Shown: positions 9,416 to 26,522 of the stretch, in pieces
How positions within the stretch are numbered: the stretch's first letter is position 1
Layout of the letters: the number at the start of each line of letters is the position of its first letter
Assembly: GCF_037039395.1 (NCBI RefSeq)
Contig: NZ_CP146243.1
Span: forward strand, 142,865-206,864
Direction of reading: 5' to 3'
Source of the DNA: Agrobacterium vitis
GTDB lineage: Bacteria > Pseudomonadota > Alphaproteobacteria > Rhizobiales > Rhizobiaceae
Length of the DNA stretch: 64,000 bases
Notes under the pieces: model-generated
The model's input: only the letters and a program-made list of their open reading frames with translations
The model's database searches: none
What the model was told of the DNA's origin: nothing
Translations under genes and position numbers: made by a program

Positions 9416-10744
9416 TTAGGCGCGATCGATTGCGTCAGCAAGTAACGAAACGATGTCATCGATCTGGCTCGTTTCAATCGTCAACGGTGGAGAGAGCGCG
9501 ATGATGTCTCCGGTTACGCGGATCAAAACGCCGCGGTTGAAGCAGTCGACAAAGACGTCATAGGCACGCGTCCCGACGGAGGTTCCGCGTGGCGCGAGTT
9601 CGATCCCGGCAACAAGACCGATCGTTCGAATGTCGATGACGTTCATTCGCCCCTTTAAGGCGTGGATAGCGGTTTCCCAGTGCTGTGAAAGTTCCGCAGC
9701 ACGCGTTAGGAGCCCTTCCTTTTGGTAGATTTCGAGCGTGGCGAGACCGGCGGCGCATGCAACGGGATGACCGGAATACGTGTAGCCATGGAATAGTTCG
9801 ATTGCAGATTCCAGACCGTGCATGAGAGCGTCGTGAACCGCCGAACTGGTAAATACCGCTCCCATTGGAACGACACCGTTGGTAAGGCCCTTGGCTGTGG
9901 TGATGATATCGGGTGTTATGCCAAAATAGTCGACTGCAAATGGAGTACCCAAACGGCCAAAGCCGCTGATGACCTCGTCGAAGATCAACAATATGCCATG
10001 CTTGTCGGCTATGGCGCGAAGACGTTCGAGATAGCCTTTCGGAGGGAGCAGGACCCCGGTGGAGCCGGCAACAGGCTCTACGATTACGGCTGCTATGGTT
10101 TCGGCGCCGTGCAGCCCAACCAGGCGCTCCAGATCGTCCGCCAGATCGGCGCCGTGTTCAGGAAGACCGCCCTTCGTAAATGCGTTTTTGGCAAGGTCGT
10201 GGGTATGGCGAAGATGGTCTGTGCCGGGAAGGGTTGGGAATACACGACGGTTGTTGACGAGACCGCCAACGGAAATGCCGCCGAATCCGACGCCATGATA
10301 GCCGCGCTCCCGACCAATCACGCGCGTACGCGTTCCCTGTCCAATGGCGCGCTGATATGCAATTGCGATCTTCAGCGCCGTGTCGACGGATTCCGAGCCG
10401 GAGCCCGTATAGAAGATCTTGTCGAGCTTCTTGCCATCCTCGCCTGGCGCGACATCGGCAAGGCGCTCGGCGAATTGGAACGCGATAGGATGCCCCATCT
10501 GAAACGACGGCGCAAAATCGAGCGTCATCAGCTGGCGCTCAACGGCTTGGGCAATGGATTTCCGGCCGTGGCCAGCATTCACACACCATAGGCCGGCAGT
10601 GCCGTCCAGCACCTTGTTGCCGTCGACATCTTGATAATAAACACCCTCGGCCGAGGCGAGGAGGCGAGGGGCTTTCTTGAACTGCCTGTTCGCCGTAAAG
10701 GGCATCCAGTAGCTATCGAGATTAACGGTGTTGGCGATCGTCAT
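9416..10744 (-). CDS. Class III omega-aminotransferase (beta-alanine:pyruvate type)
   Basis: A 442-residue PLP enzyme of fold type I. It begins MTIANTVNLDSYWMPFTANR, close to omega-amino acid:pyruvate transaminases. The cofactor-binding aspartate is in LIFDEVISGFGR (D256) and the Schiff-base lysine in ITTAKGLTNG (K285). The family moves a terminal amino group from beta-alanine, GABA or similar amines to pyruvate. It is the last gene of the operon below two N-demethylating flavoproteins, which fits a role in deaminating the fully demethylated primary amine. The exact substrate cannot be read from sequence. Confidence 0.85.
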   Translation of the reverse strand: MTIANTVNLDSYWMPFTANRQFKKAPRLLASAEGVYYQDVDGNKVLDGTAGLWCVNAGHGRKSIAQAVERQLMTLDFAPSFQMGHPIAFQFAERLADVAPGEDGKKLDKIFYTGSGSESVDTALKIAIAYQRAIGQGTRTRVIGRERGYHGVGFGGISVGGLVNNRRVFPTLPGTDHLRHTHDLAKNAFTKGGLPEHGADLADDLERLVGLHGAETIAAVIVEPVAGSTGVLLPPKGYLERLRAIADKHGILLIFDEVISGFGRLGTPFAVDYFGITPDIITTAKGLTNGVVPMGAVFTSSAVHDALMHGLESAIELFHGYTYSGHPVACAAGLATLEIYQKEGLLTRAAELSQHWETAIHALKGRMNVIDIRTIGLVAGIELAPRGTSVGTRAYDVFVDCFNRGVLIRVTGDIIALSPPLTIETSQIDDIVSLLADAIDRA

Positions 10745-10767
10745 TTTGAGTACTCCCTAGGCCATTG

Positions 10768-13215
10768 TTAGAGCTTGGTTCGTTCTGATTTCGGGTCATA
10801 CATCGAGCGTATCGATGCGTCCGCCGCGAACCGCTGGCCTGCCACTTCGATTTCGTAGACCGACGCAAGGACCTGTTCCTCGGTTTCTCCCTTGCACGGC
10901 ACGTAACCCATGCCGATTGCTCCTCCGAGGTGATGGCCGTAATTGCCGGATGTGATGATCGAGACGATTTCCCCATCGCGCACCAAGGCTTCGTTGTGGA
11001 AAAGCAAGGGTTCCGGATCACGCAGCTTGAACTGCAACATCCGGCGTTCAAGACCGGTCTCCCGCTTTTGGACCACGGCATCCCGACCTATGAAGTCACC
11101 CTTGTTAGTTTTGACGGCGAACCCGAGCCCTGCTTCCAGAACGTGGTCTTCGTCGGTGATGTCATGGCCAAAATGGCGGAAGCCCTTTTCGATACGGCAG
11201 GAGTCCAGAGCGTGTAACCCGCAAAGCTTCAGGCCAACTTCTTTCCCGGCGTCCTCAAGCGCTTCGAATACGTGCGCTGTCTGGTCACTCGACACGTACA
11301 ATTCCCAGCCCAACTCGCCGACATACGTGACACGGTGCGCGCGGGCCAGGCCCATCCCGATCTCAATCTCCTGAGCTGTTCCAAACGGGAATGCGGCGTT
11401 GGAAAAGTCATTGGGGCTGACCCGGGTGATGACATCGCGAGCCTTCGGTCCCATCAGCACCAGAACGGATTCGGCCGCTGAGATATCTGTGACAACGACG
11501 AACTCCTCCGGCTGAATCTGCTTGCGAAACCAGGCAAGGTCGCGTTGCAGCGTGGCACCTGGAACGACCGCGAAGAAGGCGGTGTTCGAGAGGCGCGTAA
11601 TTGTGAGGTCGCTCTCGATACCGCCGCGATTGTTCAGCATCTGCGTGTAGACGATACGGCCTGAAGGGACATCCATCTGGTTGGCGCAAACCCTTTGAAG
11701 GAACGCCAGGGCATCGCGACCTTCGATACGGATTTTGCCAAAGGAGGTCATGTCGAACAGACCGACGCCGTTTCTGATGGCAAGGTGCTCTTGCTTCTGG
11801 TTCTCGAACCAGTTCTGCCGTTTCCAGCTGTAACGGTACTCGCGCTCTTGCCCTTCGTTTGCGAACCAATTGGCGCGCTCCCAGCCGGCAACTTCGCCGA
11901 ACACGGCACCTCGCGCCTTCAGATGCTCGTGCAATGGAGACCGACGAATTCCGCGGGATGTCGCAACCTGCCGATAGGGGAAATGATCTGCGTATAGGAG
12001 ACCAAGTGTCTCCGTCACACGTTCCTTCAAGTAGGCGCGGTTCTTCTGGAATGGCTGGGCACGCCGGATGTCGACTTCCCAGAGATCGAACGGAGCTTCG
12101 CCGTCATTCATCCACTGGGCGAGTGCAAATCCTGCGCCACCCGACGACGAGATGCCGATGGAATTGTAACCGGCGGCAACCCAGTAGCCCTTCAATTCGG
12201 GCGCTTCGCCAAGATAATAACGGTCGTCCGGCGTGAAACTTTCCGGCCCGTTGAAGAAGGTGTGAATGCCGGCTGTTTCAAGCATCGGCATCCGGTTGAC
12301 GGCCTTCTCCAGGATAGGCTCGAAGTGATCGAAATCTTCCGGCAGCTGGTCAAAGCAGAAATCTTCGCGAATACCATTCATGCCCCATGGCTTTGCCTTC
12401 GGCTCGAACGCGCCAAGCAGCATCTTGCCCGCGTCTTCCTTGTAGTAGGCACACTCGTCCGGCACGCGAAGAACGGGAAGCCGCGAGAGGTTTTCGATGG
12501 CTTCGGTGACGATGTAGAAATGCTCGCACGCGTGAAGAGGCAAGGTGACCCCGGAGCGGGCCGCAAGGTCACGGCCCCACATGCCACCGCAATTGACGAC
12601 CAGGTCCGTCTCGATCGTCCCTTCATCTTCGCCCTGTGCCCATGACACGCCCGTAACGCGGCCATCCTTCTCATTGACCGCGGTTACCTTGACATTCTCG
12701 ATGATTTTCGCGCCACGCTGACGTGCGCCCTTTGCCAGCGCCATGGCGATATTGGCGGGGTCGCATTGCCCGTCCAAGGGCAAATGCACCGCGCCGACGA
12801 CGTCTGCGATGTTGAGGTGCGGATAGAGGTTCTTGACCTCCTCCGGCGAGATTTCATTCACATCGATGTCGAATGCCCTCGCCAGTGTCGCCTGACGGTA
12901 GATTTCTTCCTTACGCTCGTGTGTCAAGGCAACCGTGATCGAGCCATTCTGACGCATGCCGGTCGCAATGCCGGTCTCCTCTTCGAGCTTCACGTAAAGA
13001 TCGGCCGAGTATTTAGCCAGGCGTGTCATGTTCTGCGAGGCGCGAAGCTGGCCGATGAGGCCGGCTGCGTGCCACGTCGTTCCCGATGTCAACTGCTTGC
13101 GTTCGAGCAGAATGATGTCGGTCCATCCCAGTTTCGCTAAGTGGTATGCCACCGAGCAACCGGAAATGCCGCCGCCGATAATGACGACGCGTGCCTTGGC
13201 AGGAAGGTTACTCAT
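10768..13215 (-). CDS. Dimethylglycine/sarcosine dehydrogenase-like flavoprotein (second copy)
   Basis: An 815-residue protein. It has an N-terminal FAD-dependent DAO domain (RVVIIGGGISGCSVAYHLAK; covalent-FAD region near SGTTWHAAGLIGQLRAS), the FAO_M middle domain, then GcvT-like folate-binding domains from about residue 430 (FDMTSFGKIRIEGRDALAFL, ELGWELYVSSDQ). Such enzymes oxidise an N-methyl group, pass electrons to ETF, and channel formaldehyde to tetrahydrofolate as 5,10-methylene-THF. The start overlaps the stop of the first copy by four bases. The two proteins are clearly paralogous but diverged, suggesting different methylation states or substrates. Confidence 0.87.
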   Translation of the reverse strand: MSNLPAKARVVIIGGGISGCSVAYHLAKLGWTDIILLERKQLTSGTTWHAAGLIGQLRASQNMTRLAKYSADLYVKLEEETGIATGMRQNGSITVALTHERKEEIYRQATLARAFDIDVNEISPEEVKNLYPHLNIADVVGAVHLPLDGQCDPANIAMALAKGARQRGAKIIENVKVTAVNEKDGRVTGVSWAQGEDEGTIETDLVVNCGGMWGRDLAARSGVTLPLHACEHFYIVTEAIENLSRLPVLRVPDECAYYKEDAGKMLLGAFEPKAKPWGMNGIREDFCFDQLPEDFDHFEPILEKAVNRMPMLETAGIHTFFNGPESFTPDDRYYLGEAPELKGYWVAAGYNSIGISSSGGAGFALAQWMNDGEAPFDLWEVDIRRAQPFQKNRAYLKERVTETLGLLYADHFPYRQVATSRGIRRSPLHEHLKARGAVFGEVAGWERANWFANEGQEREYRYSWKRQNWFENQKQEHLAIRNGVGLFDMTSFGKIRIEGRDALAFLQRVCANQMDVPSGRIVYTQMLNNRGGIESDLTITRLSNTAFFAVVPGATLQRDLAWFRKQIQPEEFVVVTDISAAESVLVLMGPKARDVITRVSPNDFSNAAFPFGTAQEIEIGMGLARAHRVTYVGELGWELYVSSDQTAHVFEALEDAGKEVGLKLCGLHALDSCRIEKGFRHFGHDITDEDHVLEAGLGFAVKTNKGDFIGRDAVVQKRETGLERRMLQFKLRDPEPLLFHNEALVRDGEIVSIITSGNYGHHLGGAIGMGYVPCKGETEEQVLASVYEIEVAGQRFAADASIRSMYDPKSERTKL

Positions 13216-15659
13216 GCGCGAATTCTTTCGTTCTTAGGGTCCCAGAGCGGTTCGTCAGTATGGACGGTAGCCGCATGTCGTTGGCCAAAAATTTCAATTT
13301 CGAGTTTGGTGCCCGGTTCATGCAGCTCGGAGCGCAGCATGCCGAGGGCAATTGACTTGCCGACGCGGTGCCCATAGCCGCCCGATGTGGTTTCCCCGAC
13401 GATCGTGTCGCCGAGCCAGATGGTGGACATGTAGGGCGCATCGAAATCGCCTGCATCGACAGTCAAAGTCGCAAACCGTTTTTTCACGCCCGCCTGCTTT
13501 TCGCCCGCCAATGCCGCCTTGCCGAGGAAGTTTTCCTTGTCCCACTTCACGAAACGGTCGAGACCGCCCTGCAGGATCGTGTAGTCGGTCGAAAGGTCAC
13601 CCTTCCAGGTGCGATAGCCCTTTTCAAGCCGCAGCGAATCCAGTGCGAACATCCCGAACGGACGCAGCCCGAAACCCTTGCCTGCTTCCCAAATCGCATC
13701 GAATACGGATGGTGTATCCTCGACTCGGCTGTGGATTTCCCAGCCAAGCTCACCGGCGAACGATACGCGGATGATCCGGCAGGGGCGATCGGCGATCTCG
13801 GTTGTTTGATGTGTCAACCATCCCTTAGAGAGATCGCAGGCGGTGACGCACGCCAATATATCGCGCGAGGCCGGACCAGTCAGGATCTGGCACGAATACT
13901 GTTCCGTGACGTCGGTGATGGTGACATTCCCGTCTTTCGGCAGATGCTTCTCCAGCCATTCGCGGTCATGCCACTGGGCTACCGCTGCGGTGATGAGCAC
14001 GAACTCGTCTTCGTCGTTCGCCATGATCGACATCTCGGTAACGATACGTCCCTTCTCGTCCGCGAAGTAGGCCAGACCAATGCGCCCGGGCTTCGGAACA
14101 AGACCCGTGGTCATGCTCAGAAGCCATTCGCGTGTGCCGGGGCCTTCGACCTTGAATCGCGAAAAGCCCGGAAGGTCGAGGATGCCTGCATGGTCACGAA
14201 CAGCAAGGCATTCTTCACGAATGCGCTGCTGCCACGGTCCATCTCGGCTAAATGTCTCGGTTGAGTGTTCTGACGTGTCGTCGTCGGGCTGCGCGTACCA
14301 ATTGGCTCGTTCCCAACCATTGTATGCGCCGAACTGGCCCCCGAGTGCCTGGATGCGATTATGGATTGGAGAAAGCTTCCTGTCGCGGCCTGCTGGCCAC
14401 ATGTGTTTTGGAAAATGAATGGCATATTCGTTGCCATAGACTTCCATAGCCTTGTCTACACAGTATTGCTGGTCAGTATAATGTGTGAATCGACGCGGAT
14501 CGCAGGACCACATGTCCCATTCGGTCTGGCCTTCGGTGATCCATTCGGCGAGCACCTTTCCGGCACCACCGCCCTGTGCGATGCCGAAAGTGAAGACACA
14601 TGCCTCGAACGCATTGGGTACACCTGGCATCGGCCCGATCAAAGGATTGCCGTCCGGAGTATAAGGGATAGGACCATTGATGATCTTGGATAGACCAGCG
14701 GTGCCAAGGATCGGAACACGTTCGACGGCATCATTCAGATACCATTCGAGGCGATCGAGGTCGTCTGGATAGAGCTGGAATGAAAAGTCCGCTGGCATCG
14801 GATCCTCGGCGGTATTCCAGTGTGCCCGGCAGTTACGCTCATATGGACCGAGATTCATCCCGGTCTTCTCTTGTCGCAGATAGTAGGAGCTATCGACATC
14901 GCGCAGAAGGGGCAGTTTGCCACCATTCTCCTTCGACCATGCAGCGAGTTCCGGGATTTCCTCGAAGAGGATGTATTGATGGCTCATCACCGCCATCGGA
15001 ACGTTTCTGCCGAACATGCGGCCCACTTCCTGTGCGCGGTAACCTGCGGCATTGACGACGTAGTCACATCGGATGTCACCTTTCTCAGTCGAGATAACCC
15101 ATTCCTCTTTGTCGCGGCTGACGGATGTCACAGGGCAAAAGCGGATGATCCTGGCACCCATGTCGCGGGCACCTTTGGCAAGCGCCTGGGTGAGCTGGGC
15201 AGGATCGATGTCTCCATCGTTCGGATCGTAAAGTGCGCCCTTGAGGTCGTGGGTTTCCAGGAAGGGATAGCGGCTCGTAATCTCGTCTACGCCAAGGACC
15301 TCAATGTCCATGCCCTGATAGCGTCCCATTCCCTTGACGCGTTGGAACTCCAACATTCGCTCATCTGTGTGCGCGAGCCGTAGCGAGCCGGTGACATGAT
15401 AGTTCATCGGGTAGTCGACTTCGGCACCAAGCTTTTTGTACAGCTCGGTCGAGTAGCGTTGCATATTCATGAGCGACCAGGAGGACGAAAACGTCGGAAC
15501 ATTGCCGGCCGCGTGCCAGGTAGAGCCGGAGGTCAGCTCATTCTTTTCGAGCAGAACGCAATCCGTCCAGCCGGCTTTAGCAAGATGATAGAGGCCTGAG
15601 ACGCCAACGACGCCACCACCAATGATGACAACGCGCGCTCTTGTTGGTACTTCAGACAT
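13212..15659 (-). CDS. Dimethylglycine/sarcosine dehydrogenase-like flavoprotein (first copy)
   Basis: An 815-residue protein of the same architecture as the downstream copy: Rossmann motif VVIIGGGVVGVSGLYHLAKA, flavin-linkage region SGSTWHAAGNVPTFSSSW, central FAO_M, then aminomethyltransferase-like domains (LDLPGFSRFKVEGPGTREWL, FAGELGWEIHSRVED). ATG 15659 (MSEVPTRARV) is chosen over a frame extension to 15698 because GGAG precedes it on the minus strand. It follows the ETF alpha gene after about 130 bases. Expected to demethylate an N-methylated amino acid with ETF as acceptor. Confidence 0.87.
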   Translation of the reverse strand: MSEVPTRARVVIIGGGVVGVSGLYHLAKAGWTDCVLLEKNELTSGSTWHAAGNVPTFSSSWSLMNMQRYSTELYKKLGAEVDYPMNYHVTGSLRLAHTDERMLEFQRVKGMGRYQGMDIEVLGVDEITSRYPFLETHDLKGALYDPNDGDIDPAQLTQALAKGARDMGARIIRFCPVTSVSRDKEEWVISTEKGDIRCDYVVNAAGYRAQEVGRMFGRNVPMAVMSHQYILFEEIPELAAWSKENGGKLPLLRDVDSSYYLRQEKTGMNLGPYERNCRAHWNTAEDPMPADFSFQLYPDDLDRLEWYLNDAVERVPILGTAGLSKIINGPIPYTPDGNPLIGPMPGVPNAFEACVFTFGIAQGGGAGKVLAEWITEGQTEWDMWSCDPRRFTHYTDQQYCVDKAMEVYGNEYAIHFPKHMWPAGRDRKLSPIHNRIQALGGQFGAYNGWERANWYAQPDDDTSEHSTETFSRDGPWQQRIREECLAVRDHAGILDLPGFSRFKVEGPGTREWLLSMTTGLVPKPGRIGLAYFADEKGRIVTEMSIMANDEDEFVLITAAVAQWHDREWLEKHLPKDGNVTITDVTEQYSCQILTGPASRDILACVTACDLSKGWLTHQTTEIADRPCRIIRVSFAGELGWEIHSRVEDTPSVFDAIWEAGKGFGLRPFGMFALDSLRLEKGYRTWKGDLSTDYTILQGGLDRFVKWDKENFLGKAALAGEKQAGVKKRFATLTVDAGDFDAPYMSTIWLGDTIVGETTSGGYGHRVGKSIALGMLRSELHEPGTKLEIEIFGQRHAATVHTDEPLWDPKNERIRA

Positions 15660-15789: not shown

Positions 15790-16719
15790 CTACAGAATCC
15801 GTTGAAGCTCGGGCAAAGCGTCGAACAGGTCGGCCACGAGTCCGTAATCGGCGACCTGGAAGATCGGCGCTTCCTCGTCCTTGTTGATTGCGACGATGAC
15901 CCTCGAATCCTTCATGCCGGCGAGGTGCTGGATCGCACCGGAGATGCCGCAAGCGATGTAAAGCTGCGGTGCAACAACCTTGCCTGTCTGGCCAATCTGC
16001 AAGTCGTTCGGAGCATATCCTGCGTCCACCGCCGCGCGAGATGCGCCAACAGCCGCTCCCAACTTGTCAGCGACCGGGAAGACCACTTCCGAAAATTTCT
16101 CGGCGGATCCAAGCGCACGACCACCGGAAATGATAATTTTGGCCGATGAGAGCTCGGGACGATCCGAGGACGAAAGTGCATCGCCCACAAAGGTCGATAG
16201 CTCATGGTTTACCGAAGCATCTATTGTTTCGATTGGTGCGCCACCGGCTACCCCTGTAGGTTCGAAAGCCGCGGCCCTGACGGTAATGACGCGCTTGGTA
16301 TCCGTTGCCTGAATCGTCTGGATTGCGTTTCCGGCGTAGATCGGGCGCCTGAACGTGTCAGGTGTCACAACCTCGATGATTTCGGACACTTGAGCCACAT
16401 CGAGAAGTGCTGCGACCCTGGGCATGACGTTTTTGCCGACGGAGGTCGCCGCCATGATCAGTGTATCGTATGCTGGAGACAGACCAACAATGAGGTCGGC
16501 AAGTGGCTCGGCAAGATTGTTTGCGAAATGGGCCGCGTCGGCTATCACGACTCTTGCCACGCCTTCAAGGGCCGCAGCCGCAGTCGCTGCGCCCTTTGCA
16601 TTGTGCCCGGCAACCAGAATGTGGACGACACTGCCAATCTTCCGAGCGGCTGTAAGGGCTTTTGCTGTCTGGTCCGACACTGATACGGTATCGTGATCTG
16701 CGATGAGTAATATTGTCAT
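15790..16719 (-). CDS. etfA: Electron transfer flavoprotein alpha subunit
   Basis: A 309-residue FixB/EtfA protein. Start ATG 16719 ([10 protein letters not shown]) fits because GGGAG lies six bases upstream; ATG 16725 abuts the same GGGAG. The C-terminal FAD domain is recognisable: [58 protein letters not shown] and [20 protein letters not shown]. It accepts electrons from the two demethylating dehydrogenases and hands them to ETF-ubiquinone oxidoreductase, which is encoded in the divergent operon. Confidence 0.93.
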
Positions 16720-16732
16720 GGTCATCTCCCGA

Positions 16733-17482
16733 CTATAGGACGCCAGCTTCAGTTCTGAGTTTTTCGACAAGTTCGGCGACCGACTTAACGTTGATGCCCG
16801 ACTTGCGGCCCGCAGGCTCTTCTGTCTTCAACAGCTTGAGACGAGGCTCCGTCGAAACGCCCAACGCGGCAGGCGTTGTCTTGTCGAGTGGCATCTTCTT
16901 TGCTTTCATGATGTTCGGCAACGATGCGTAGCGCGGCTCGTTAAGCCGCAGATCGGTCGTGACAACAGCGGGGAGCTTGATGCGGATCGTCTGCAGACCG
17001 CCATCGACTTCGCGTGTGACGGTCGCCTTTTCTTCTGCAATCTCCAGCTTGGAAGCAAATGTGCCCTGAGCCCATCCAAGAAGGGCTGCCAACATCTGAC
17101 CGGTCTGGTTGCAGTCATCGTCGATAGCCTGCTTGCCGACGATGATGAGACCAGGCTGTTCTGCCTCAGCGATCGATCTCAGTATTTTAGCGACGGCAAG
17201 CGGTTCGACCGGCGTATCCGTTTCGACGAGGATTGCACGATCTGCACCCATGGCCAGAGCAGTTCGCAGCGTTTCTTCCGCCTTTGCTGGACCGATCGAT
17301 ACGACAACAATTTCCTTCGCCAAGCCGGCTTCCCTCAAACGAAGGGCTTCCTCGACGGAGATTTCGTCGAACGGGTTCATAGACATCTTGACGTTCGCGA
17401 GCTCGACATCAGATCCATCGGGTTTGACCCGAATTTTGACGTTGTAGTCGATCACTCTTTTGACAGGGACAAGAATCTTCAT
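16733..17482 (-). CDS. etfB: Electron transfer flavoprotein beta subunit
   Basis: A 249-residue EtfB/FixA protein beginning [20 protein letters not shown]. It shows the family signature [18 protein letters not shown] and the AMP-binding region [16 protein letters not shown] frame extension to 17506 lacks support; ATG 17482 follows AGACCACC. Paired directly with etfA in the same operon. The C-terminus has the usual KAKKMPLDK recognition-loop-like stretch. Confidence 0.93.
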
Positions 17483-17515
17483 GGTGGTCTCCGAGATCGA
17501 GCGCACTATTCTGCG

Positions 17516-18331
17516 TCAGGGTTCGGCTCGCTCCTGGCGGGCCTGAAGGGCGTTTGCCGTCAGCATCAATGCTGCTGCAACAATGATAAGAAGTGTGGCG
17601 ACCGCTGTAATCGCCGGGCTGATTTGCTCTCTCAAGCCTGACCACATTTGCCGCGGAAGTGTTTTCTGCTCGGCGCCAGTCACAAAAAGAGCCACCACGA
17701 CATCATCAAAAGAGGTGACGAATGCGAAGATCGCACCGGAAACGACACCCGGCATGATGATTGGGAGCATAACCCGGCGGAAAGCGGTCGTTGGTGCGGC
17801 TCCGAGACTGGCTGCGGCCCGCATAAGACGGTGGTCGAAGCCCTCGAGCGTTGCGGCCACGGTAATCATCACGAAAGGCGCACCGAGAGCAGTGTGCGAG
17901 AGGATCAATCCAGTCAGCGTGTTCAGCAGACCGATGTCTGCATAAAAGTAGAAAATACCGACAGCCGCGACGACGACCGGTATAACGATCGGCGAAATGA
18001 TGATGGCCGACAGGGCCATCTTCCAGGGGCAGTCCGGTCGATTGAGGCCAATCGCGGCTAGGGTACCCAGGATAGTCGACAGCAAAGTTGCAAAGATCGC
18101 CACAATGACACTGTTGCGCGCTGCCAACTGCCAATCCGCCGAGGCAAACACGTCCTCGTACCAGCGAAGCGAAAAGCCGGGCATGGGATAAGTGAAAAAG
18201 GGCTCGGCATTGAATGACAACGGTATGATTGCGAGAATTGGTGCCATGAGGAAAAAAAGCACAAGCGCCGAGAAGAAACGCAGTAGCCAGCGTGCGCCGG
18301 TGGCCTTTGGAAGCGAGACTGCCATACTCAT
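17516..18331 (-). CDS. ABC transporter permease (PotC-like)
   Basis: A 271-residue inner-membrane permease with about six hydrophobic segments (LLRFFSALVLFFLMAPILAI at the start, IIISPIVIPVVVAAVGIFYF in the middle). The EAA-like loop LMRAAASLGAAPTTAFRRVM contacts the ATPase. ATG 18331 overlaps the stop of the other permease by four bases, so the long upstream extension of the frame is spurious. Belongs to the spermidine/putrescine-type importers of the same operon. Confidence 0.87.
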   Translation of the reverse strand: MSMAVSLPKATGARWLLRFFSALVLFFLMAPILAIIPLSFNAEPFFTYPMPGFSLRWYEDVFASADWQLAARNSVIVAIFATLLSTILGTLAAIGLNRPDCPWKMALSAIIISPIVIPVVVAAVGIFYFYADIGLLNTLTGLILSHTALGAPFVMITVAATLEGFDHRLMRAAASLGAAPTTAFRRVMLPIIMPGVVSGAIFAFVTSFDDVVVALFVTGAEQKTLPRQMWSGLREQISPAITAVATLLIIVAAALMLTANALQARQERAEP

Positions 18332-19599
18332 GCTTTTGCTCCCGTGCGCCGACCATAAGCGACAACGAGCGCCGTATAGAAACCAACGACGAGGCCAAGC
18401 AGCACAACTGCGAGTGCTGCTGCCATACCCCAGTTCGACGATTGATTGACGAAATAGGCAATGAAGTAGCTCAGCATCTGGTCTTTCGGACCCCCAACGA
18501 GGGCTGGCGTGATGTAGTAGCCAAGCGCCAGAATGAACACGAGGAGCGCTCCCGCTCCCACACCAGGTAATGTGAGCGGGAGATAAACGCGCAAGAAGGC
18601 CTTGTAGGGTGGTGCGCCGAGTGACGATGCGGCCCGCCAATATGTTCCGGGGATCCCTTTCATGACGGCGTGCACCGGAAGGACGACAAACGGCAAGAGG
18701 ATGTGGGTCATCGCAATGAGGACGCCAGCGCGGTTATGGACAAGTTCCAATGGATTGGTGATCAGGCCAAGCGTTCGCAGAAGGGAATTTACCACCCCGT
18801 TGTTCTGCAGGAGTACCAGCCACGCGGTCGTTCGCACGAGCAGGGACGTCCAGAATGGCAGGAGAACCAGCATCATCAACCAGCGCGTAGTTTTGGGATC
18901 TGTAGAAGCCAGCATGTAGGCAAGTGGATAGCCAATCAGGACACAAAGGATAGTCACTGACAGACTTATAAGGACCGTCCGGATGATGACGTCGATATAG
19001 ATCGCGTCCTGTGTTTCCATCACGATTGAACCGTCGGGTGCCTTCTTGAGATCGAGTGCTTTCAAAAGGTAGTAATCCGTAATCGCGGGCGAGCCATCCA
19101 GGATGGTTTGCCAGGTCGCGACCTGCCCCCATTTTTCGTTAATAGCGATCAGTCCCTGCTTGGTGTTAGCCGGATCGAGGTCACCAAGTTCCTTAACGGT
19201 ACGAGTAACCAGTGTGCGAAATCCTGCGTCCAAATAGTTGAGGCGCTTTCCCAACTCGGCAATCCGATCACGCGGGGCTGCCTTTAGATCCGCGACAAAT
19301 GCGCGGAAAGTTTCATCGGAGGGAAGCTCCCGACCATCCCATCGGGCCAGAAGCGGCGCACTTAAAGCCAGAACGTTTGGAACTTCCCGATTGTCCACGG
19401 CGCGGACCAGAAGAAGTCCGATCGGAAACAGGAAAGTCACCAAGAGAAACACGAGAAGCGGCGCAACGAGCCCCAGAGCCTTGAGGCTTCCGGCCCTACG
19501 CGACCTTTCGAGCCGCTTCTTCAATGCGAGGTTTGGGCCGGATGCGGTCTTTGTCACGACGGTCTCATTGTAGGGCATGTCATGTTTAGGCAGTGCCAT
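18328..19599 (-). CDS. ABC transporter permease (PotB-like) with an extended periplasmic insert
   Basis: A 423-residue permease from ATG 19599. TM1 (APLLVFLLVTFLFPIGLLLV) is followed by an unusually long hydrophilic segment (about residues 65-190) before the second membrane helix. The conserved permease core then holds the EAA loop YWRAASSLGAPPYKAFLRVY. Polyamine-type PotB proteins are usually shorter (~280-300 residues); extended versions are known in rhizobial polyamine/opine-like importers. A TTG at 19614 would add five residues; the ATG is more likely. Confidence 0.85.
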   Translation of the reverse strand: MALPKHDMPYNETVVTKTASGPNLALKKRLERSRRAGSLKALGLVAPLLVFLLVTFLFPIGLLLVRAVDNREVPNVLALSAPLLARWDGRELPSDETFRAFVADLKAAPRDRIAELGKRLNYLDAGFRTLVTRTVKELGDLDPANTKQGLIAINEKWGQVATWQTILDGSPAITDYYLLKALDLKKAPDGSIVMETQDAIYIDVIIRTVLISLSVTILCVLIGYPLAYMLASTDPKTTRWLMMLVLLPFWTSLLVRTTAWLVLLQNNGVVNSLLRTLGLITNPLELVHNRAGVLIAMTHILLPFVVLPVHAVMKGIPGTYWRAASSLGAPPYKAFLRVYLPLTLPGVGAGALLVFILALGYYITPALVGGPKDQMLSYFIAYFVNQSSNWGMAAALAVVLLGLVVGFYTALVVAYGRRTGAKA

Positions 19600-19670: not shown

Positions 19671-20735
19671 TTATTGAGCGAGCCAGGTGTTGAAGCGCGC
19701 TGTCAGTTCCTCGTCGTGGTCGGCCCAGAACTGAGCTGAGATCGAGAACGACGTCTTTGAATTGTCCGGAGCTGTCGGAAGGTTTGACATGACGGATGCA
19801 TCAACGAACTTCGATGCCTCGAGGCTTGAAGGGCCATACGGCATGTACTTTGTCTGTTCGGCAAGGTTTTCAGGCTTGCTTGCGAAAGCAACGAACTTCT
19901 TTGCAAGTTCGAGCTTGGAGGTTCCCTTCGGGATCGCCCACATGTCCCAGTCGAGAGCCGCGCCATCCCAAACGATCTTGAAATTCTTTCCGCTGTTTTT
20001 CACGGCATCGTAGATGCGGCCGTTATATGCGGTGGTGATAGCCACTTCGCCGTCTGCAAGAAGCTGAGGCGGCTGAGCGCCGGCCCCCCACCAGACCTTT
20101 ACGTACGGCTTGATCTGGTCGAGTTTCTTGAATGCGCGATCGACCCCTTCCTTGGTGGCGAGCACCTTGTAAACGTCGGCCGGTGCGACGCCGTCCGCGA
20201 TCAAGGCAAGCTCGAGAGTCGACTTGGGGGATTTACGAAGGGAGCGTGCGCCCGGAAACCTCTTGACGTCCCAGATGTCTGCAACAGTTGTCGGGCCACC
20301 ATTGGGGAATTTCGAAGCATCATAGGCAAAAATGTAGGCAAAGGCGACGTTGCCGACTGCGCACTCCAGAGCAGCGCCGGGTAAGAATTTGTCTTTCCCA
20401 CCGAGGCTATTGTAATCAATGGGCTCTAGCCAGCCTTCGTCGCAACCTTGCAGCGCGTGACCTGGTTCGACGTCAACAACGTCCCAGCTCGTTGTACCGG
20501 TTTCGACCATGCCCTTGAGCTTCGCAGTTTCGCCGCTCCACTCATCGGTTACGATATTGACGCCGGACGCCTTCTTGAAAGGTTCGAAGTAGGCCTTTGC
20601 CTGGCTCTCTTGATACGCACCGCCCCAAGACGCGATCGTGAGGCTGTCTGCTGCATGGGCGAAAGTGGACGATCCCGACAGCAGGACTGCGTACATAGCT
20701 GCCGAGGTGAACTTGGACGTGATTTTGTTCTTCAT
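19671..20735 (-). CDS. Periplasmic substrate-binding protein (PotD/PotF-like)
   Basis: A 354-residue extracytoplasmic solute-binding protein of the polyamine type. It has a signal peptide (MKNKITSKFTSAAMYAVLL... cleaved after AHA) and mature N-terminus ADSLTIASWGGAYQESQAKA. ATG 20735 lies six bases after AGGGGA; ATG 20741 directly abuts it. The family binds spermidine, putrescine and other cationic amines, and by context may bind an N-methylated amino compound. It is followed by the two permeases. Confidence 0.88.
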   Translation of the reverse strand: MKNKITSKFTSAAMYAVLLSGSSTFAHAADSLTIASWGGAYQESQAKAYFEPFKKASGVNIVTDEWSGETAKLKGMVETGTTSWDVVDVEPGHALQGCDEGWLEPIDYNSLGGKDKFLPGAALECAVGNVAFAYIFAYDASKFPNGGPTTVADIWDVKRFPGARSLRKSPKSTLELALIADGVAPADVYKVLATKEGVDRAFKKLDQIKPYVKVWWGAGAQPPQLLADGEVAITTAYNGRIYDAVKNSGKNFKIVWDGAALDWDMWAIPKGTSKLELAKKFVAFASKPENLAEQTKYMPYGPSSLEASKFVDASVMSNLPTAPDNSKTSFSISAQFWADHDEELTARFNTWLAQ

Positions 20736-20850
20736 TGTCATTCCCCTGATTGTTATCGTTCAGTCACTGGCCAAGAACGATCAATTTGAAATGCCCGCCC
20801 TTGGTTATTTCCAGACAGCAACTCGAAAAATTGCTGCGCTGAATTCTTGG

Positions 20851-21945
20851 CTACTGGAGAGCAGAGCAGTCGGCCTGGCTCCAGCCGATATTGACCTTTT
20901 TCCCTTTGGTCATTTCCGATGACTGCAATGATCCATTTGGAACCTTGACGACGATATCGTTGCTTCCGAGAGCCGACAGACGAACCCGGACGTGGTCGCC
21001 GAGATAGAACACCTCTTCGATGATGGCGGCTGCGACATTGTCGTTGTCACCCTTTGGATCGATGTGAATACGTTCTGGTCTAATCGATAGCGTCGTGCGG
21101 GCACCGGCACTCATGGAGCCTGACGCTCTTGCCCGAACCAACTGGTCTGCACCATCCAGATGAACGTGACATTCGGATCCATTGATCGATTGCACTCGTC
21201 CAGCTAGCGCGTTGTTGTCGCCGATAAACCGCGCGACGAAGGGATTGGATGGGTTCTCGTAAATGTTGGTTGGGGAACCAAGCTGTTGAACGATACCATC
21301 GTTGAAGATGGCAATTCGGTCGGACATCGTCAGCGCCTCGCCTTGGTCGTGAGTCACGTAAACGATGGATATGCCGAGCCGTTCATGCAGGTGTTTGATT
21401 TCAAGCTGCATATGCTCGCGCAGTTGCTTGTCGAGCGCCCCGAGGGGCTCATCCATGAGGACCAGAGACGGTTTGAAAACGAGTGCTCTTGCCAGCGCTA
21501 TACGCTGTTGTTGACCGCCGGAAAGCTGAGCTGGTCGACGGTTTGCAAACTGGCCCATTTGAACCATGTCCAAGGCCGCCCGAACCTGTTCCTTCTGATC
21601 CACTTTCCCGACGCGCCGCATCTGGAGAGGAAACGCAACGTTCTCAGCGACCGTCATGTTTGGAAAAAGGGCGTAATTTTGAAAGACAACCCCGATATTG
21701 CGATGGTGCGGGGGTAGATTTTCGATGGGCCTGCCATCAAGAATGATCGCGCCTGAGGTAGGGGTCTCAAACCCTGCGAGCATCATGAGCGATGTTGTTT
21801 TGCCTGATCCCGATGGTCCCAGCATCGTCAGGAATTCGCCCTTTCGAATATCGAGGTTCAATCGTTTGACGACAATATTGACGCCGTCATAGGTCTTTTC
21901 AACGGCATCGAAGCGAACAATGTAAGTGTCGTTACTCTGGTTCAT
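20851..21945 (-). CDS. ABC transporter ATPase (PotA-like)
   Basis: A 364-residue ATPase. Walker A is LGPSGSGKTTS, the signature LSGGQQQRIALARAL and Walker B LVLMDEPLGALDKQ, followed by the H-loop VTHDQGEALTMSD and a C-terminal TOBE-like regulatory domain. ATG 21945 (MNQSNDTYIVRFDAVEKTYD) follows CGAGG; the in-frame extension to 21999 is not needed. It is the first gene of the long minus-strand operon running to the aminotransferase at 9416. Confidence 0.9.
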   Translation of the reverse strand: MNQSNDTYIVRFDAVEKTYDGVNIVVKRLNLDIRKGEFLTMLGPSGSGKTTSLMMLAGFETPTSGAIILDGRPIENLPPHHRNIGVVFQNYALFPNMTVAENVAFPLQMRRVGKVDQKEQVRAALDMVQMGQFANRRPAQLSGGQQQRIALARALVFKPSLVLMDEPLGALDKQLREHMQLEIKHLHERLGISIVYVTHDQGEALTMSDRIAIFNDGIVQQLGSPTNIYENPSNPFVARFIGDNNALAGRVQSINGSECHVHLDGADQLVRARASGSMSAGARTTLSIRPERIHIDPKGDNDNVAAAIIEEVFYLGDHVRVRLSALGSNDIVVKVPNGSLQSSEMTKGKKVNIGWSQADCSALQ

Positions 21946-22127: not shown

Positions 22128-22256
22128 CTAGAAAATTCATCTCATATAAAAAATGGTTTTACAAGTGTGAAAAAAATGGCTTGATTTTTCACCAATAAAT
22201 ATTCAGTATCACGCCAACATCAGAAAACTATTGAAAAACTGCGCTAGAAATTTCAT
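22128..22256. promoter_or_regulatory. Repeats in the divergent promoter of the demethylation island
   Basis: The AT-rich gap between the ABC ATPase and the XRE-cupin regulator holds a direct repeat, CTAGAAAATTCAT (22128-22140) and CTAGAAATTTCAT (22244-22256), 116 bases apart. Between them an inverted repeat pairs GTGAAAAA (22167-22174) with TTTTTCAC (22185-22192). Their position between two divergent operons makes them candidate operators for the adjacent cupin-type regulator. Confidence 0.5.
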
Positions 22257-22340: not shown

Positions 22341-22946
22341 ATGCCCCCGAGAAGTTTGCGTAGAGCTGAAGCCTTGAATGCCGAAGAGGTGGCGCCTGAG
22401 GCAGCGATTGGCGGACAGATCAGGGAACTGCGAAAGGTTAAGGGGCTCACGCTGCAACAGGTTGCCGACGCTGCTGAGATATCCGTGGGATACCTCAGTC
22501 AGATAGAGCGCAATCAGACGAAGTTGCCGATCGGCGTCCTGAAAAAGATCAGCGGCACTCTCGGTGTGCACATGAGCTGGTTTTTTCATGCTGACGACAT
22601 TCCGAGCCAGGAAAGGGACATAGTGGTGCGGTCACACAACCGCCGCCGCTTTACCTTTACCGGGATTGGCATTGAGGAAGAACTGCTCTCTCCCAATTTG
22701 AGCGGTCCGCTTGAGTTGCTCATGAGCACCATCGAGCCGGGCGCTGACAGCGGAGATTACAGCCACGATGGCGTTGAGGCAGGGCTCGTCGTTTCAGGAC
22801 GGCTGGACTTATGGGTGTCAGGTACGTTTTTCCAGCTCGAAGAGGGTGACAGTTTTTCCTTCAAGAGCACGGAAATCCACCGTTGTGCGAATTCCGGTGA
22901 CAAGCAGACGAAGGTCGTTTGGGTCATTACGCCGCCGCACTACTAG
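22341..22946 (+). CDS. XRE family regulator with C-terminal cupin sensor
   Basis: A 201-residue protein. The HTH_3 domain occupies about residues 25-80 (GGQIRELRKVKGLTLQQVAD, ISVGYLSQIERNQTKLPIGV) and a cupin domain residues 120-200 (HDGVEAGLVVSGRLDLWVSG, EGDSFSFKSTEIHRCANSGD). This PuuR/SutR-like arrangement senses small molecules such as polyamines or amino acids. It stands between the divergent import/demethylation operon and the purU-folD-ETF-QO genes, and probably controls both through the repeats upstream. Confidence 0.88.
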   Translation: MPPRSLRRAEALNAEEVAPEAAIGGQIRELRKVKGLTLQQVADAAEISVGYLSQIERNQTKLPIGVLKKISGTLGVHMSWFFHADDIPSQERDIVVRSHNRRRFTFTGIGIEEELLSPNLSGPLELLMSTIEPGADSGDYSHDGVEAGLVVSGRLDLWVSGTFFQLEEGDSFSFKSTEIHRCANSGDKQTKVVWVITPPHY

Positions 22947-23069: not shown

Positions 23070-23921
23070 ATGCCATCAAACTTCATCCTGACGCTGAATT
23101 GCGTGGACAAGGTCGGAATCGTTGCGGCGGTGACGACAGAGCTGGCTGCTATTGGCGCGAACATTGCCGAAAGCAATCAGTATTGGGATAAGAATTCCAA
23201 TCGGTTCTTTATGCGTTTAGCATTCACTACGTCGGACGAGAAGTCCCGCGACGATGTCGAGCGCGTCCTGAAATCGGTAACCGACCGATTCGAGATGAAA
23301 ACCAAGCTTGTCGATGTCAGTCGCAAGCCGAAGATCATCATTATGGTTTCCAAATTCGACCACGCTATGCTCCATCTCCTGTATCAGATCCGAGTCGGAT
23401 GGCTGAATGCCGAAGTTGTGGCAATCGCTTCCAATCATGAGGATAGCGCTGCAACCGCAAAACTTGAAGGCATTCCCTACCATTGCTGGAAGGTGACGAG
23501 GGAGAACAAGGCGGAGCAAGAAGAGCGGCTGATTACGCTTGCAAGCGAAATGGGCGCTGATCTGGTTATTCTCGCTCGTTACATGCAGGTGCTGTCTGAC
23601 AACCTCTCGACACGGCTCTTCGGCAAGATCATCAATATCCACCATTCGTTCCTGCCTTCGTTCAAGGGTGCAAAGCCGTATCACCAGGCCTTTGACCGCG
23701 GTGTGAAGATTATTGGAGCGACCTCGCATTACGTCACACCGGATCTGGATGAGGGTCCGATTATCGAGCAAGAGACTGAACGGGTCACCCACGCGATGAG
23801 CGCAGAGGATTTCGTGGCGACCGGCCGTGACATCGAAAGCCGAGTACTGGCGCGCGCGGTGAAAATGCATCTGGAATGCCGCGTGATGCTGAACGGCCAC
23901 AAAACCGTCGTCTTTGCGTAA
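23070..23921 (+). CDS. purU: Formyltetrahydrofolate deformylase
   Basis: A 283-residue PurU. It has an N-terminal ACT domain (FILTLNCVDKVGIVAAVTTE) and a formyltransferase-like hydrolase domain with the active-site stretch IINIHHSFLPSFKGAKPYHQ and the later aspartate in YVTPDLDEGPIIEQ. It hydrolyses 10-formyl-THF to formate and THF. AGGGG at 23058-23062 precedes ATG 23070. In this context it would release the C1 unit derived from N-methyl groups and regenerate THF for the demethylases. Followed by folD after nine bases. Confidence 0.92.
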   Translation: MPSNFILTLNCVDKVGIVAAVTTELAAIGANIAESNQYWDKNSNRFFMRLAFTTSDEKSRDDVERVLKSVTDRFEMKTKLVDVSRKPKIIIMVSKFDHAMLHLLYQIRVGWLNAEVVAIASNHEDSAATAKLEGIPYHCWKVTRENKAEQEERLITLASEMGADLVILARYMQVLSDNLSTRLFGKIINIHHSFLPSFKGAKPYHQAFDRGVKIIGATSHYVTPDLDEGPIIEQETERVTHAMSAEDFVATGRDIESRVLARAVKMHLECRVMLNGHKTVVFA

Positions 23922-23930
23922 GGATCGACC

Positions 23931-24836
23931 ATGGACAAATTCTCAAAGGTGCTGTCTGGCAAGGTCGTTGCAGAAAACGTGCTGGAGCACGTCAAATCAG
24001 AAACAGTTCGTCTGGTTGCTCAAGGGATTAAGCCAGGCCTGGCCGTTGTTATCGTCGGGAACGATCCTGCGAGCCAGGTTTACGTGACATCCAAGGGAAA
24101 GAAGGCCGAAGAATGCGGCTTTCTTTCCATCAAGCATGAACTGGCGGAAAATACGAGTGAGGCTGAACTTCTTTCCCTCATCGCTTCTTTGAACGCCGAC
24201 GAGGCTCTCCACGGAATTCTGGTTCAGTTGCCCCTGCCGAAACATATCAACGCCGAAAAAGTAGTACAGTCGATCTCGCCGGACAAGGACGTGGATGGCT
24301 TTCACTACGTGAATGCCGGCAAACTCGCAACCGGCTCGCTCGCCCAGGCTTTTGTTCCCTGCACACCAGCAGGATCAATGGTTCTTATCGAAAAAGTGTT
24401 GGGAACTGATCTTTCTGGTCTCAATGCCGTCGTGATTGGTCGATCAAATATCGTCGGGAAACCGATGGCCAATCTATTACTCGCCGCCAATGCCACGGTG
24501 ACTATCGCTCATAGCAAGACCAAAGAACTTCCATCCGTCTGCCGCCGTGCTGACATTCTCGTCGTAGCGGTCGGGTGCCCGCGCATGGTCAACTCAGACT
24601 GGATCAAACCTGGCGCTCTCGTAGTTGATGTGGGCATCAACAGAATAGCTCCGGGCACGGACGTCGGTTCAACGTCGCGCCTTGTCGGGGACGTAGATTT
24701 CGATGATGTTCTCAACACCGTTGGGACGATAACTCCCGTGCCAGGGGGTGTCGGTCCGATGACCATCGCAATGCTCATGGCAAACACATTGAAGGCAGCG
24801 TGCCTCGCCAATGGGTTGCCCCAACCGGCTTTTTGA
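23931..24836 (+). CDS. folD: Bifunctional methylene-THF dehydrogenase/methenyl-THF cyclohydrolase
   Basis: A 301-residue FolD. Active-site residues are present in [13 protein letters not shown] (Y51, K55) and the folate site DKDVDGFH. The NADP-binding signature is [17 protein letters not shown] and the C-terminal motif [15 protein letters not shown]. It converts 5,10-methylene-THF to 10-formyl-THF, linking the demethylases to PurU. Such a dedicated copy beside demethylating flavoproteins suggests it is a pathway gene rather than the housekeeping copy. Confidence 0.93.
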
Positions 24837-24866
24837 GCCCGGACAAAAATACCTTGGATCAGCGCA

Positions 24867-26522
24867 ATGAGTGACGAAATAGAGCGCGAGAGTATGGAAT
24901 TCGACGTGGTGATTGTGGGTGCGGGGCCTGCGGGGCTTTCGGCGGCCATTCGCCTCAAGCAGGTCAATCCTGATCTGACGGTTGTGGTGCTGGAAAAGGG
25001 CGCGGAAGTCGGCGCCCATATTCTCTCCGGGGCCGTGGTCGATCCGGTTGGTGTCGATAAGCTCCTGCCGGATTGGCGCAAGGAAGCCGATCATCCGTTC
25101 AAGACCGAAGTCACCGCTGACCACTTTCTGTTTCTCGGACCGGCTGGCTCCATGCGCCTGCCCAACGCGCTGATGCCGCCGCTGATGAACAATCACGGCA
25201 ATTACATCGTCTCGCTCGGCAATGTCTGTCGCTGGCTGGCGGGCCATGCCGAGGCGCTCGGTGTCGAGATCTATCCGGGCTTTGCCGCAACCGAACTGCT
25301 TTATAATGAGGCTGGCGCAGTGATCGGTGTTGCCACCGGTGATATGGGCATCGAAAAGAACGGCGAACCCGGTTCCAGTTACACGCGCGGCATGGAATTG
25401 CTGGGCAAATATGTGCTGATCGGCGAAGGGGTGCGTGGCTCGCTTGCCAAGCAGCTGATCGCCAAATTCGATCTGTCCCGCGACAGCGATGTGCAGAAAT
25501 TCGGCCTGGGCATCAAGGAACTGTGGCAGGTCAAGCCTGAGCACCATAAGCCCGGCCTGGTCCAACACTCGTTCGGCTGGCCGCTGGACATGAAAACCGG
25601 CGGTGGCTCCTTCCTCTATCATCTGGAGGACAATCAGGTCGCGGTCGGCTTTGTCGTCCATCTGAACTATAAGAACCCCTATCTCTATCCGTTTGAAGAA
25701 TTCCAGCGCTTCAAGACCCATCCGGCGATCCGTGAAACCTTCGAGGGTGCCAAGCGGATTTCCTATGGAGCGCGGGCGATTACCGAAGGCGGCTATCAAT
25801 CGGTGCCGAAATTGTCCTTCCCCGGTGGAGCGCTGCTGGGCTGTTCGGCGGGCATGGTCAATGTGCCGCGCATCAAGGGCAGCCATAATGCTGTTCTCTC
25901 AGGCATGATGGCGGCGGAAAAGATTGCCGAGGCAATTGCCGCAGGCCGCGCCAATGATGAGCCGGTCGAGATCGAAAACAGCTGGCGTGGCAGCGAAATC
26001 GGCACGGATTTGCGGCGGGTGCGAAACGTCAAGCCGCTATGGTCGAAACTCGGCACGGTGCTCGGCGTGGCACTTGGCGGGCTGGACATGTGGACCAACC
26101 AGCTTCTCGGCTTGTCCGTATTCGGCACGCTGAAGCATGGCAAGACCGATGCCCAGAGCCTTGAACCGGCTGCAAAGCATAAGAAGATCGATTATCCCAA
26201 GCCGGATGGTGTGCTGACCTTCGACCGCCTGTCCTCGGTATTTCTGTCCAACACCAATCACGAGGAAGACCAGCCGGTTCATCTCAAGGTCAAGGACATG
26301 GCCCTGCAGAAGAGTTCCGAGCTTGGCGTCTATGCCGGTCCGTCCAGCCGCTACTGTCCCGCCGGGGTTTATGAATGGGTGGAGAAGGAGGGCGAGCCGA
26401 GCTTCGTCATCAACGCCCAGAACTGCGTCCACTGCAAGACCTGCGACATCAAGGACCCGAACCAGAACATCACCTGGGTGCCGCCACAAGGAGGCGAAGG
26501 ACCGGTTTATCCGAACATGTAA
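24867..26522 (+). CDS. Electron transfer flavoprotein-ubiquinone oxidoreductase
   Basis: A 551-residue ETF-QO. The FAD motif is DVVIVGAGPAGLSAAIRLKQ, the quinone/membrane-associated middle region includes GWPLDMKTGGGSFLYHLEDN, and the C-terminal [4Fe-4S] site has cysteines in SRYCPAGVYEW and NCVHCKTCDIKDP. It oxidises reduced ETF and reduces ubiquinone at the inner membrane. Codon use appears more GC-rich than in the preceding genes, suggesting it may be a later addition or a duplicate of a chromosomal gene. It completes the electron path from the demethylases. Confidence 0.92.
   Translation: MSDEIERESMEFDVVIVGAGPAGLSAAIRLKQVNPDLTVVVLEKGAEVGAHILSGAVVDPVGVDKLLPDWRKEADHPFKTEVTADHFLFLGPAGSMRLPNALMPPLMNNHGNYIVSLGNVCRWLAGHAEALGVEIYPGFAATELLYNEAGAVIGVATGDMGIEKNGEPGSSYTRGMELLGKYVLIGEGVRGSLAKQLIAKFDLSRDSDVQKFGLGIKELWQVKPEHHKPGLVQHSFGWPLDMKTGGGSFLYHLEDNQVAVGFVVHLNYKNPYLYPFEEFQRFKTHPAIRETFEGAKRISYGARAITEGGYQSVPKLSFPGGALLGCSAGMVNVPRIKGSHNAVLSGMMAAEKIAEAIAAGRANDEPVEIENSWRGSEIGTDLRRVRNVKPLWSKLGTVLGVALGGLDMWTNQLLGLSVFGTLKHGKTDAQSLEPAAKHKKIDYPKPDGVLTFDRLSSVFLSNTNHEEDQPVHLKVKDMALQKSSELGVYAGPSSRYCPAGVYEWVEKEGEPSFVINAQNCVHCKTCDIKDPNQNITWVPPQGGEGPVYPNM

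Follow-up and report, generated by a model that had tools for sequence, protein, structure and literature searches.

The window analysed here is a 64,000-nucleotide stretch of Agrobacterium vitis DNA (NZ_CP146243.1, positions 142,865 to 206,864), forming the last 64 kb of the 206,864-base contig C3 in a genome of 6.04 Mb. Between positions 9416 and 26522 it carries a block of 13 intact genes with open frames, arranged in two divergent sets as identified by open reading frame calls and profile search. We postulate that this block, a transferable unit, serves to break down a small N,N-dimethylated amino acid, probably an omega-amino acid, through two demethylations, the disposal of the released one-carbon (C1) units and a final step by the aminotransferase AptA, all controlled by an XRE-cupin regulator; as a whole, we judge this reading to be evenly poised between right and wrong. 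The genes, their co-conservation, their catalytic residues and the conservation of an operator are observed directly. The individual parts are known, and their combination, a double folate-linked N-demethylation joined to an importer, an electron chain, C1 disposal and an aminotransferase, appears from its gene content to be a new variant. No described route that joins two folate-linked demethylations to a closing transamination was found in the open-licence literature, nor, as far as titles and opening abstracts show, was this gene arrangement. The features of the block are as follows.

9416..10744, minus strand: AptA, class-III omega-aminotransferase of the beta-alanine:pyruvate type (NF052567, 713.8 bits, cut-off 500)
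10768..13215, minus strand: DH2, flavoprotein of the dimethylglycine dehydrogenase (DMGDH)/sarcosine dehydrogenase (SARDH) family with a folate domain, probably acting on the last N-methyl group (DAO, FAO_M, GCV_T, GCV_T_C)
13212..15659, minus strand: DH1, DMGDH-like flavoprotein with a folate domain, probably acting on the first of two N-methyl groups (DAO, FAO_M, GCV_T, GCV_T_C)
15790..16725, minus strand: EtfA, electron transfer flavoprotein (ETF) alpha (PF01012 and PF00766)
16733..17482, minus strand: EtfB, ETF beta (PF01012)
17516..18331, minus strand: ABC importer permease, PotC-like (BPD_transp_1; PotC model best, under its cut-off; start at the first ATG of the frame)
18328..19578, minus strand: ABC importer permease, PotB/PotH-like (BPD_transp_1; PotH/PotB models best, under their cut-offs; start codon uncertain)
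19671..20741, minus strand: periplasmic binding protein, SBP_bac_8, of the gamma-aminobutyrate (GABA)/opine-binding subgroup (profile search, relatives, pocket residues)
20851..21945, minus strand: ABC importer ATPase, PotA-like (TIGR01187, 380 bits, cut-off 356)
22167..22192, no strand: palindromic operator GTGAAAAA-N10-TTTTTCAC, predicted, probable XRE-cupin site (conserved in 7 of 7 blocks in relaxed form)
22341..22946, plus strand: XRE-cupin (PuuR-like) regulator (HTH_3 and Cupin_2)
23070..23921, plus strand: PurU, formyl-tetrahydrofolate deformylase (TIGR00655, 318.1 bits, cut-off 286)
23931..24836, plus strand: FolD, methylene-tetrahydrofolate dehydrogenase/cyclohydrolase (NF010785, 461.5 bits, cut-off 396)
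24867..26522, plus strand: ETF-QO, ETF-ubiquinone oxidoreductase (PF05187, PF21162)

The minus-strand set consists of AptA, DH2, DH1, EtfA, EtfB, two permeases, the binding protein and the ATPase, and the plus-strand set of the XRE-cupin regulator, PurU, FolD and ETF-QO; a 395-base intergenic region separates them. DH2 and DH1 overlap by 4 bases, as do the two permease genes, and gaps of only 9 and 7 bases lie between PurU and FolD and between EtfA and EtfB, a close spacing that suggests operons. Start codons were chosen by us, and longer frames are possible for some genes in the list of open reading frames. GC content stays between 0.52 and 0.58 in 2-kb steps across the block, without a sharp break. 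An earlier note on this DNA had listed the same 13 genes with these coordinates, and the profile search agrees for every one of them.

In the proposed pathway, the Pot-type importer would take in the zwitterion. DH1 would oxidise one N-methyl group and hand the C1 unit to tetrahydrofolate (THF), and DH2 would do likewise with the second. Electrons would flow from both enzymes through the dedicated ETF to ETF-QO and ubiquinone. The two molecules of methylene-THF would be converted to formyl-THF by FolD and then to formate and free THF by PurU, so that the THF pool would not run out. AptA would deaminate the resulting primary amine. Passage of electrons to ETF and ETF-QO, and of C1 units to formate via FolD and PurU, had been claimed in the earlier note and is borne out by the family assignments. 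We infer the order of the steps, the substrate and the sense of regulation.

The block is found as a unit elsewhere. A tblastn search with the 13 proteins and three downstream neighbours recovered the same gene order in six other records (the PermC query began three codons before, and the PermB query one codon after, the ATG now assigned). All 13 genes are present in this order in Rhizobium leguminosarum 31B (L085), R. ruizarguesonis TP15 (L124) and Sinorhizobium fredii NGR234 (L084). They are likewise complete in number and order in R. leguminosarum RCAM0626 (L123), with AptA, one permease and the XRE gene in pieces and DH1 and DH2 partial; A. tumefaciens H25/79 (L145) also has 13 of 13, with a truncated and frameshifted AptA. 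In Aureimonas endophytica (L010), 12 of the 13 are seen before the locus stops ahead of ETF-QO. L085 and L124 are nearly identical in sequence, giving about five lineages when the window is counted. Co-conservation of the whole gene set, which the earlier note had proposed as a check, is thus found in about four further lineages, and the shared order rules out a chance grouping of the genes. A plant source is stated for four of the six records. The flanks vary between copies, and the conserved block ends at the 9416-26522 bounds. Orthologues of the binding protein at 80-90% identity occur in 5 of 257 plasmid records (E <= 1e-60), all of them block records (five of the six). Matches were also found in 40 of 394 genomes of the family (E <= 1e-100) and in 3 of 397 genomes of the order (E <= 1e-140), none above 66% identity except that of the present genome. 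By these comparisons, the block is rare, mobile and tightly kept together.

DH1 and DH2 each contain DAO, FAO_M, GCV_T and GCV_T_C in one chain according to the profile search. Both are full-length relatives of rat DMGDH, which scores 575.6 bits with DH1 against 451.6 bits with DH2. The covalent-FAD histidine and the catalytic dyad are invariant in both proteins, as H49, H227 and Y260 in 85 of 85 rows for DH1 and as H49, H232 and Y257 in 79 of 79 rows for DH2; H232 and Y257 were aligned to 1pj5, and H227 and Y260 were mapped through rat DMGDH. The roles of this histidine and of the His-225/Tyr-259 dyad in dimethylglycine oxidase (DMGO) are given in the available part of PMC5082570. Together, family, catalytic residues and context make two sequential folate-linked demethylations well supported as a predicted function, in line with what the earlier note had claimed. 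DH1 would act before DH2, because it is closer to rat DMGDH and because DH2 is found without DH1 in L229 (plasmid pAt1D1609a); there, one methyl group may be taken off by a Rieske enzyme ahead of DH2. In a quick tree, the DH1 proteins of the blocks fall into one clade (SH-aLRT 99) together with that of L001, a locus with XRE, DH1 and DH2 and no match to the other block genes.

Alignment of the seven intergenic regions reveals a strongly conserved stretch around the palindrome GTGAAAAA-N10-TTTTTCAC, whose exact form has a single match in the window and none in 100 shuffles. We defined a relaxed form as TGAAAA, 9-12 bases, TTTTCA, and scanned 450 bases on either side of the XRE gene in the blocks and 1600 bases upstream of DH1 in other loci. 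All seven blocks have the relaxed form at the regulator. Among 47 other XRE-linked loci, many of them related Mesorhizobium loci and hence non-independent, it lies upstream of DH1 in 33, a number that rises to 42 when shorter arms are allowed. It is found in none of the 52 loci without XRE nearby, and the background is 0.003 per equal length in the XRE-linked loci. A search of the genome itself returned five sites, one of them in the block, compared with about three by our rough chance estimate and none in a reversed control. The operator also precedes EtfB-EtfA-DH2 in L229, and its relaxed form precedes DH2 in P. denitrificans (L231). The palindrome at 22167-22192 is probably bound by the XRE-cupin regulator, which would control both arms through it, most plausibly as a repressor released by substrate or product. 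The co-occurrence of this operator with the XRE-cupin regulator is new here. If the proposed reading is true, the regulator-operator pair would flag N-demethylation loci.

The nature of the substrate is approached through the importer. Its only Pot model to be passed is the PotA subfamily model TIGR01187; the cut-offs for PotB, PotC and PotD are not reached. The binding protein is nearest to agropine- and GABA-binding proteins, the agropine-binding one being its closest solved relative. Its pocket letters (W39, Y43, V132, F134, Y239, R242, D266, Y302) are the same in the window and in five other block copies (all but L123). When set against the eight GABA-site residues of iGABASnFR2 (9D57) listed in the available part of PMC12999171, five positions are kept, including the Arg and the Asp and counting Phe102 of the unmutated protein by alignment. 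The other three are changed (T13Y, F100V, W202Y), and these changes may leave space for N-methyl groups. The known GABA- and 5-aminovalerate-binding proteins (Atu4243, the iGABASnFR2 domain and AgtB; available portions of PMC12999171, PMC11113362 and PMC6829864) are likewise SBP_bac_8 proteins with Arg and Asp kept, and differ from the block protein at three of the eight pocket positions. Binding-protein relatives at about 65% identity carry Asn instead of Asp and occur in another context, with RidA and a pyridoxal phosphate (PLP) aminotransferase.

AptA points in the same direction. Its best PDB relatives are 4b98, 4uhm and 3a8u at 449-466 bits, the next scoring 291, and it would transaminate beta-alanine with pyruvate as its family type implies. 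It is matched in all seven block copies and whole in five. Elsewhere in the genome, a second AptA exceeds the cut-off on contig C2. Two sarcosine oxidases also exceed theirs, which makes a further sarcosine route less needed. Malonate semialdehyde could be processed further by a methylmalonate-semialdehyde dehydrogenase of this genome (657.6 bits, cut-off 448.5); in TP15, a gene of this kind lies about 8 kb from the block. The genome has no MTTB family match, and a GbcA-like protein on contig C2 reaches 518 bits, under the cut-off of 670. The binding-protein pocket, the type of AptA and the remaining gene set of the genome somewhat favour an N,N-dimethyl omega-amino acid over dimethylglycine (DMG), with N,N-dimethyl-beta-alanine as the first candidate and dimethyl-GABA as the second. 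The earlier note pointed to a possible parallel in the methylaminobutyrate demethylase cluster on plasmid pAO1 of Paenarthrobacter; this 4-methylaminobutyrate cluster has a DMGO-type demethylase, one rather than two, with folD and purU and an omega-amino acid substrate. The fate of 4-dimethylaminobutyrate in the gut was called unknown in 2021, in the available part of PMC8604678.

Several observations weigh against this reading. Block-specific columns number only 3 of 820 in DH1 (versus 79 relatives) and 8 of 821 in DH2 (versus 73 relatives), in a comparison of 85 of 87 DH1 and 79 of 87 DH2 best matches from which sequences of at most 700 residues or at most 60% identity were left out. With so few, the enzymes themselves give no hint of a new substrate, and the idea that the window flavoproteins form a visibly new specificity group was set aside. 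The pocket Arg is shared by 18 of 18 proteins compared and the Asp by 12 of 18, which makes neither residue a hallmark of the block. Two of the seven AptA copies are incomplete, those of L145 and L123, the latter being the locus in which other genes are also in pieces. Five of the 47 XRE-linked loci have neither operator form in the scanned stretch. No semialdehyde dehydrogenase is found among the genes of the block, nor is a quaternary-amine demethylase; the description 'self-contained' in the earlier note was therefore too strong. Its mechanism is supported; for its omega-amino-acid substrate, which is only somewhat favoured, the Arg/Asp pair of the binding protein and the family of AptA speak in favour, and the scarcity of block-specific columns speaks against it.

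The same scarcity fits the most serious rival, that the substrate is N,N-dimethylglycine followed by sarcosine, with DH1 as dimethylglycine dehydrogenase, DH2 as sarcosine dehydrogenase, glycine as the product and AptA serving another amine or being a passenger. We regard this as possible but rather unlikely. Its support comes from the usual surroundings of the pair. A scan of species genomes for DH1 gave at least 587 confirmed relatives; the best 80 loci were analysed, so that the contexts lean to near relatives. DH2 (at least 79% identity) accompanies DH1 in 77 of these 80, two of the remaining three loci end early, and the full block is present in one, from Aureimonas. A GbcA-like Rieske, MttB-like or homocysteine-methyltransferase (HMT) gene lies in the fetched stretch of 53, an aminotransferase match in 38 and SoxA in 34. 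Among 385 sampled alphaproteobacterial genomes, a further 20 carry DH1 at E <= 1e-300. These 20 loci (6.5 to 20 kb) contain an MttB-like gene in 13 cases, in 12 of them adjoining the pair, a homocysteine methyltransferase between DH1 and DH2 in 3 and an XRE relative (37-44%) in 10; L213 is without DH2, and the block was found in none of the 20. Two of them, L202 and L203, have a Pot-type importer (36-45% identity) beyond MttB. The usual setting of the pair thus appears to be among enzymes of families that act on the methyl groups of quaternary amines, and published work interprets such operons as glycine betaine breakdown. The order DMGDH-HMT-SARDH is read in this way for Roseobacter litoralis (available part of PMC3141670), and glycine betaine, DMG and sarcosine all support growth of R. 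pomeroyi, which has DMGDH SPO3400 and SARDH SPO3396 (available part of PMC4744692), a case that would bear on DH1 and DH2 by analogy. In L234, DH1-DH2-Rieske adjoins genes annotated for carnitine breakdown.

The glycine-betaine operons of these two organisms share with the block the same two flavoprotein types close together, and many related loci have the same XRE-cupin type and operator class; the block itself has the DH1-DH2 core, the XRE-cupin regulator and the predicted operator. It differs from them in having its own importer, ETF, ETF-QO, PurU, FolD and AptA, and in lacking what those loci use for the first methyl group, an MttB-like, Rieske or HMT enzyme: no match at E <= 1e-30 was found in the window or in L010, L084, L085, L123, L124 and L145. 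This missing first-step enzyme speaks against dimethylglycine, as do the importer, which belongs to the omega-amino-acid/opine subgroup and not to the ProU-type betaine importers, the two sarcosine oxidases elsewhere in the genome, and the recognisable AptA in every block. For the relatives themselves, glycine-betaine breakdown is a putative function: their representative Rieske, MttB-like and HMT proteins score under the cut-offs of the GbcA, MttB and homocysteine S-methyltransferase models, and R. litoralis is described as unable to use DMG (PMC3141670). Nine genomes with the pair in other contexts encode 4-10 FAO_M proteins each, so the pair need not be the sole such enzymes there.

The Mesorhizobium/Aminobacter loci L006-L076 carry a PLP aminotransferase of another family (cluster 6), whose best NCBIfam models remain under their cut-offs. 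It is seen in 31 loci, with matches reaching down to 33% identity; 29 of these place it between DH1 and DH2, and the other two, where no DH2 is visible, place it after DH1. This is a second aminotransferase kind linked to the DH pair.

A less probable alternative is that the pair is a broad-range demethylase cassette for N-methyl amino acids and that the block serves some other zwitterion, such as an opine-like, cyclic or guanidino acid that bears N-methyl groups. DH2 occurs at 87-89% identity in clusters of a different make-up. In L229, XRE (74%), PurU (50%), FolD (62%), the operator, EtfB (84%), EtfA (76%) and DH2 (89%) stand together, without a match to DH1, the Pot permeases, the Pot binding protein or AptA. 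The same stretch encodes a GbcA-like Rieske protein (497 bits, under the cut-off), a formaldehyde dehydrogenase, a ProU-type importer, a protein of the dihydrodipicolinate synthase (DHDPS) family and an aldehyde dehydrogenase. L235 (S. meliloti AK57 pSymA) is similar, with DH2, EtfB and XRE matching only in pieces and no operator match, whereas in L230 (S. americanum CCGM7) DH2 (87%) is the only block gene matched, in comparable surroundings that include a proline-racemase-family protein. No DH1 match lies beside DH2 in L229, L230 or L231. From their gene families, the L229, L230 and L235 clusters would serve proline- or hydroxyproline-betaine breakdown, and they reportedly resemble a published pathway for these compounds. 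L229 and L235 share the XRE-cupin regulator (74-75%), PurU, FolD, EtfB, EtfA and DH2 with the block, and L229 alone of them the operator; in contrast to the block, they have ProU-type importers, DHDPS-family and other enzymes, to which L229 adds the Rieske protein, a reductase and the formaldehyde dehydrogenase. The agropine-binding protein as closest solved relative also fits a broad range, as do binding-protein relatives at about 50% identity in L133 and L134, which differ at two of eight pocket places and lie near proteins that, read by eye, look creatinase-like. On the other side, AptA would have no obvious role on a cyclic or guanidino product, and we consider this alternative improbable.

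Closely similar DH2 proteins in differing clusters indicate that DH2 seems to serve different substrates, and that importer and end enzymes are the specific parts. The occurrence of the XRE-PurU-FolD-ETF-DH2 core apart from DH1, the Pot-type importer and AptA, likewise new here, makes it look like a reusable cassette. We tentatively propose, with more doubt than confidence, that a portable 'C1-stripping' cassette of XRE-cupin, operator, PurU, FolD, EtfBA and DH2 moves among rhizobial plasmids, swapping importer, first demethylase and last enzyme for N-methylated plant compounds, and that the window copy is the version for N,N-dimethyl omega-amino acids. Were this true, N-demethylation loci of soil and plant bacteria could be read by one rule: the cassette tells the chemistry, and the swapped importer and end enzyme tell the food. 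The demethylation of methylated osmolytes is relevant to the flow of nitrogen and C1 units. In L236 (R. leguminosarum A1 pRL12), EtfA (78%) occurs with EtfB, an NADH:flavin oxidoreductase, glutathione-dependent formaldehyde genes, a DHDPS-family protein and betaine importers, apparently a version using glutathione instead of folate for the C1 unit.

That the genes were merely gathered by plasmid traffic and form no single pathway, as the flanking transposases of IS6 type (8184-8915) and IS30 type (30031-31041) could suggest, is very improbable and already contradicted by the same order in about five lineages with differing flanks and a conserved operator between the arms.

Adjoining the block at 26792-29709 are a LysR gene, a gamma-butyrobetaine/TmpA-like 2-oxoglutarate dioxygenase (under cut-offs) and a class II aldolase. 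As candidate block members, LysR, the TauD/GBBH-like dioxygenase and the aldolase were rejected, since they are unmatched in L084, L085, L123, L124 and L010, the last having no sequence beyond FolD and hence no comparable far side; L145 shows only a 62-residue LysR match from the genes downstream. Relatives of the dioxygenase are also found on plasmids of Rhizobium, Thioclava, Palleronia and Sulfitobacter, and in several of these an aldolase is annotated at the match; the three genes are a separate small module.

At the DNA level, the ETF-QO stretch (24882-26523) is 95% identical to two plasmid records of Agrobacterium vitis that matched the 21-kb query at this one place only, in a single piece. 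The ETF-QO proteins of other blocks are about 86% identical to the window copy, and the gene may have been exchanged. A place in WSM2304 with a GABA aminotransferase and a semialdehyde dehydrogenase near ETF-QO led no further, only the ETF-QO and a stretch near EtfA matching block DNA. Two further PurU proteins exceed the cut-off in the genome. At G000:C1:267755-273187, about 2 kb separate a PurU that passes its cut-off from a SoxA-like protein (850 bits, under the cut-off), possibly marking another N-demethylation cluster.

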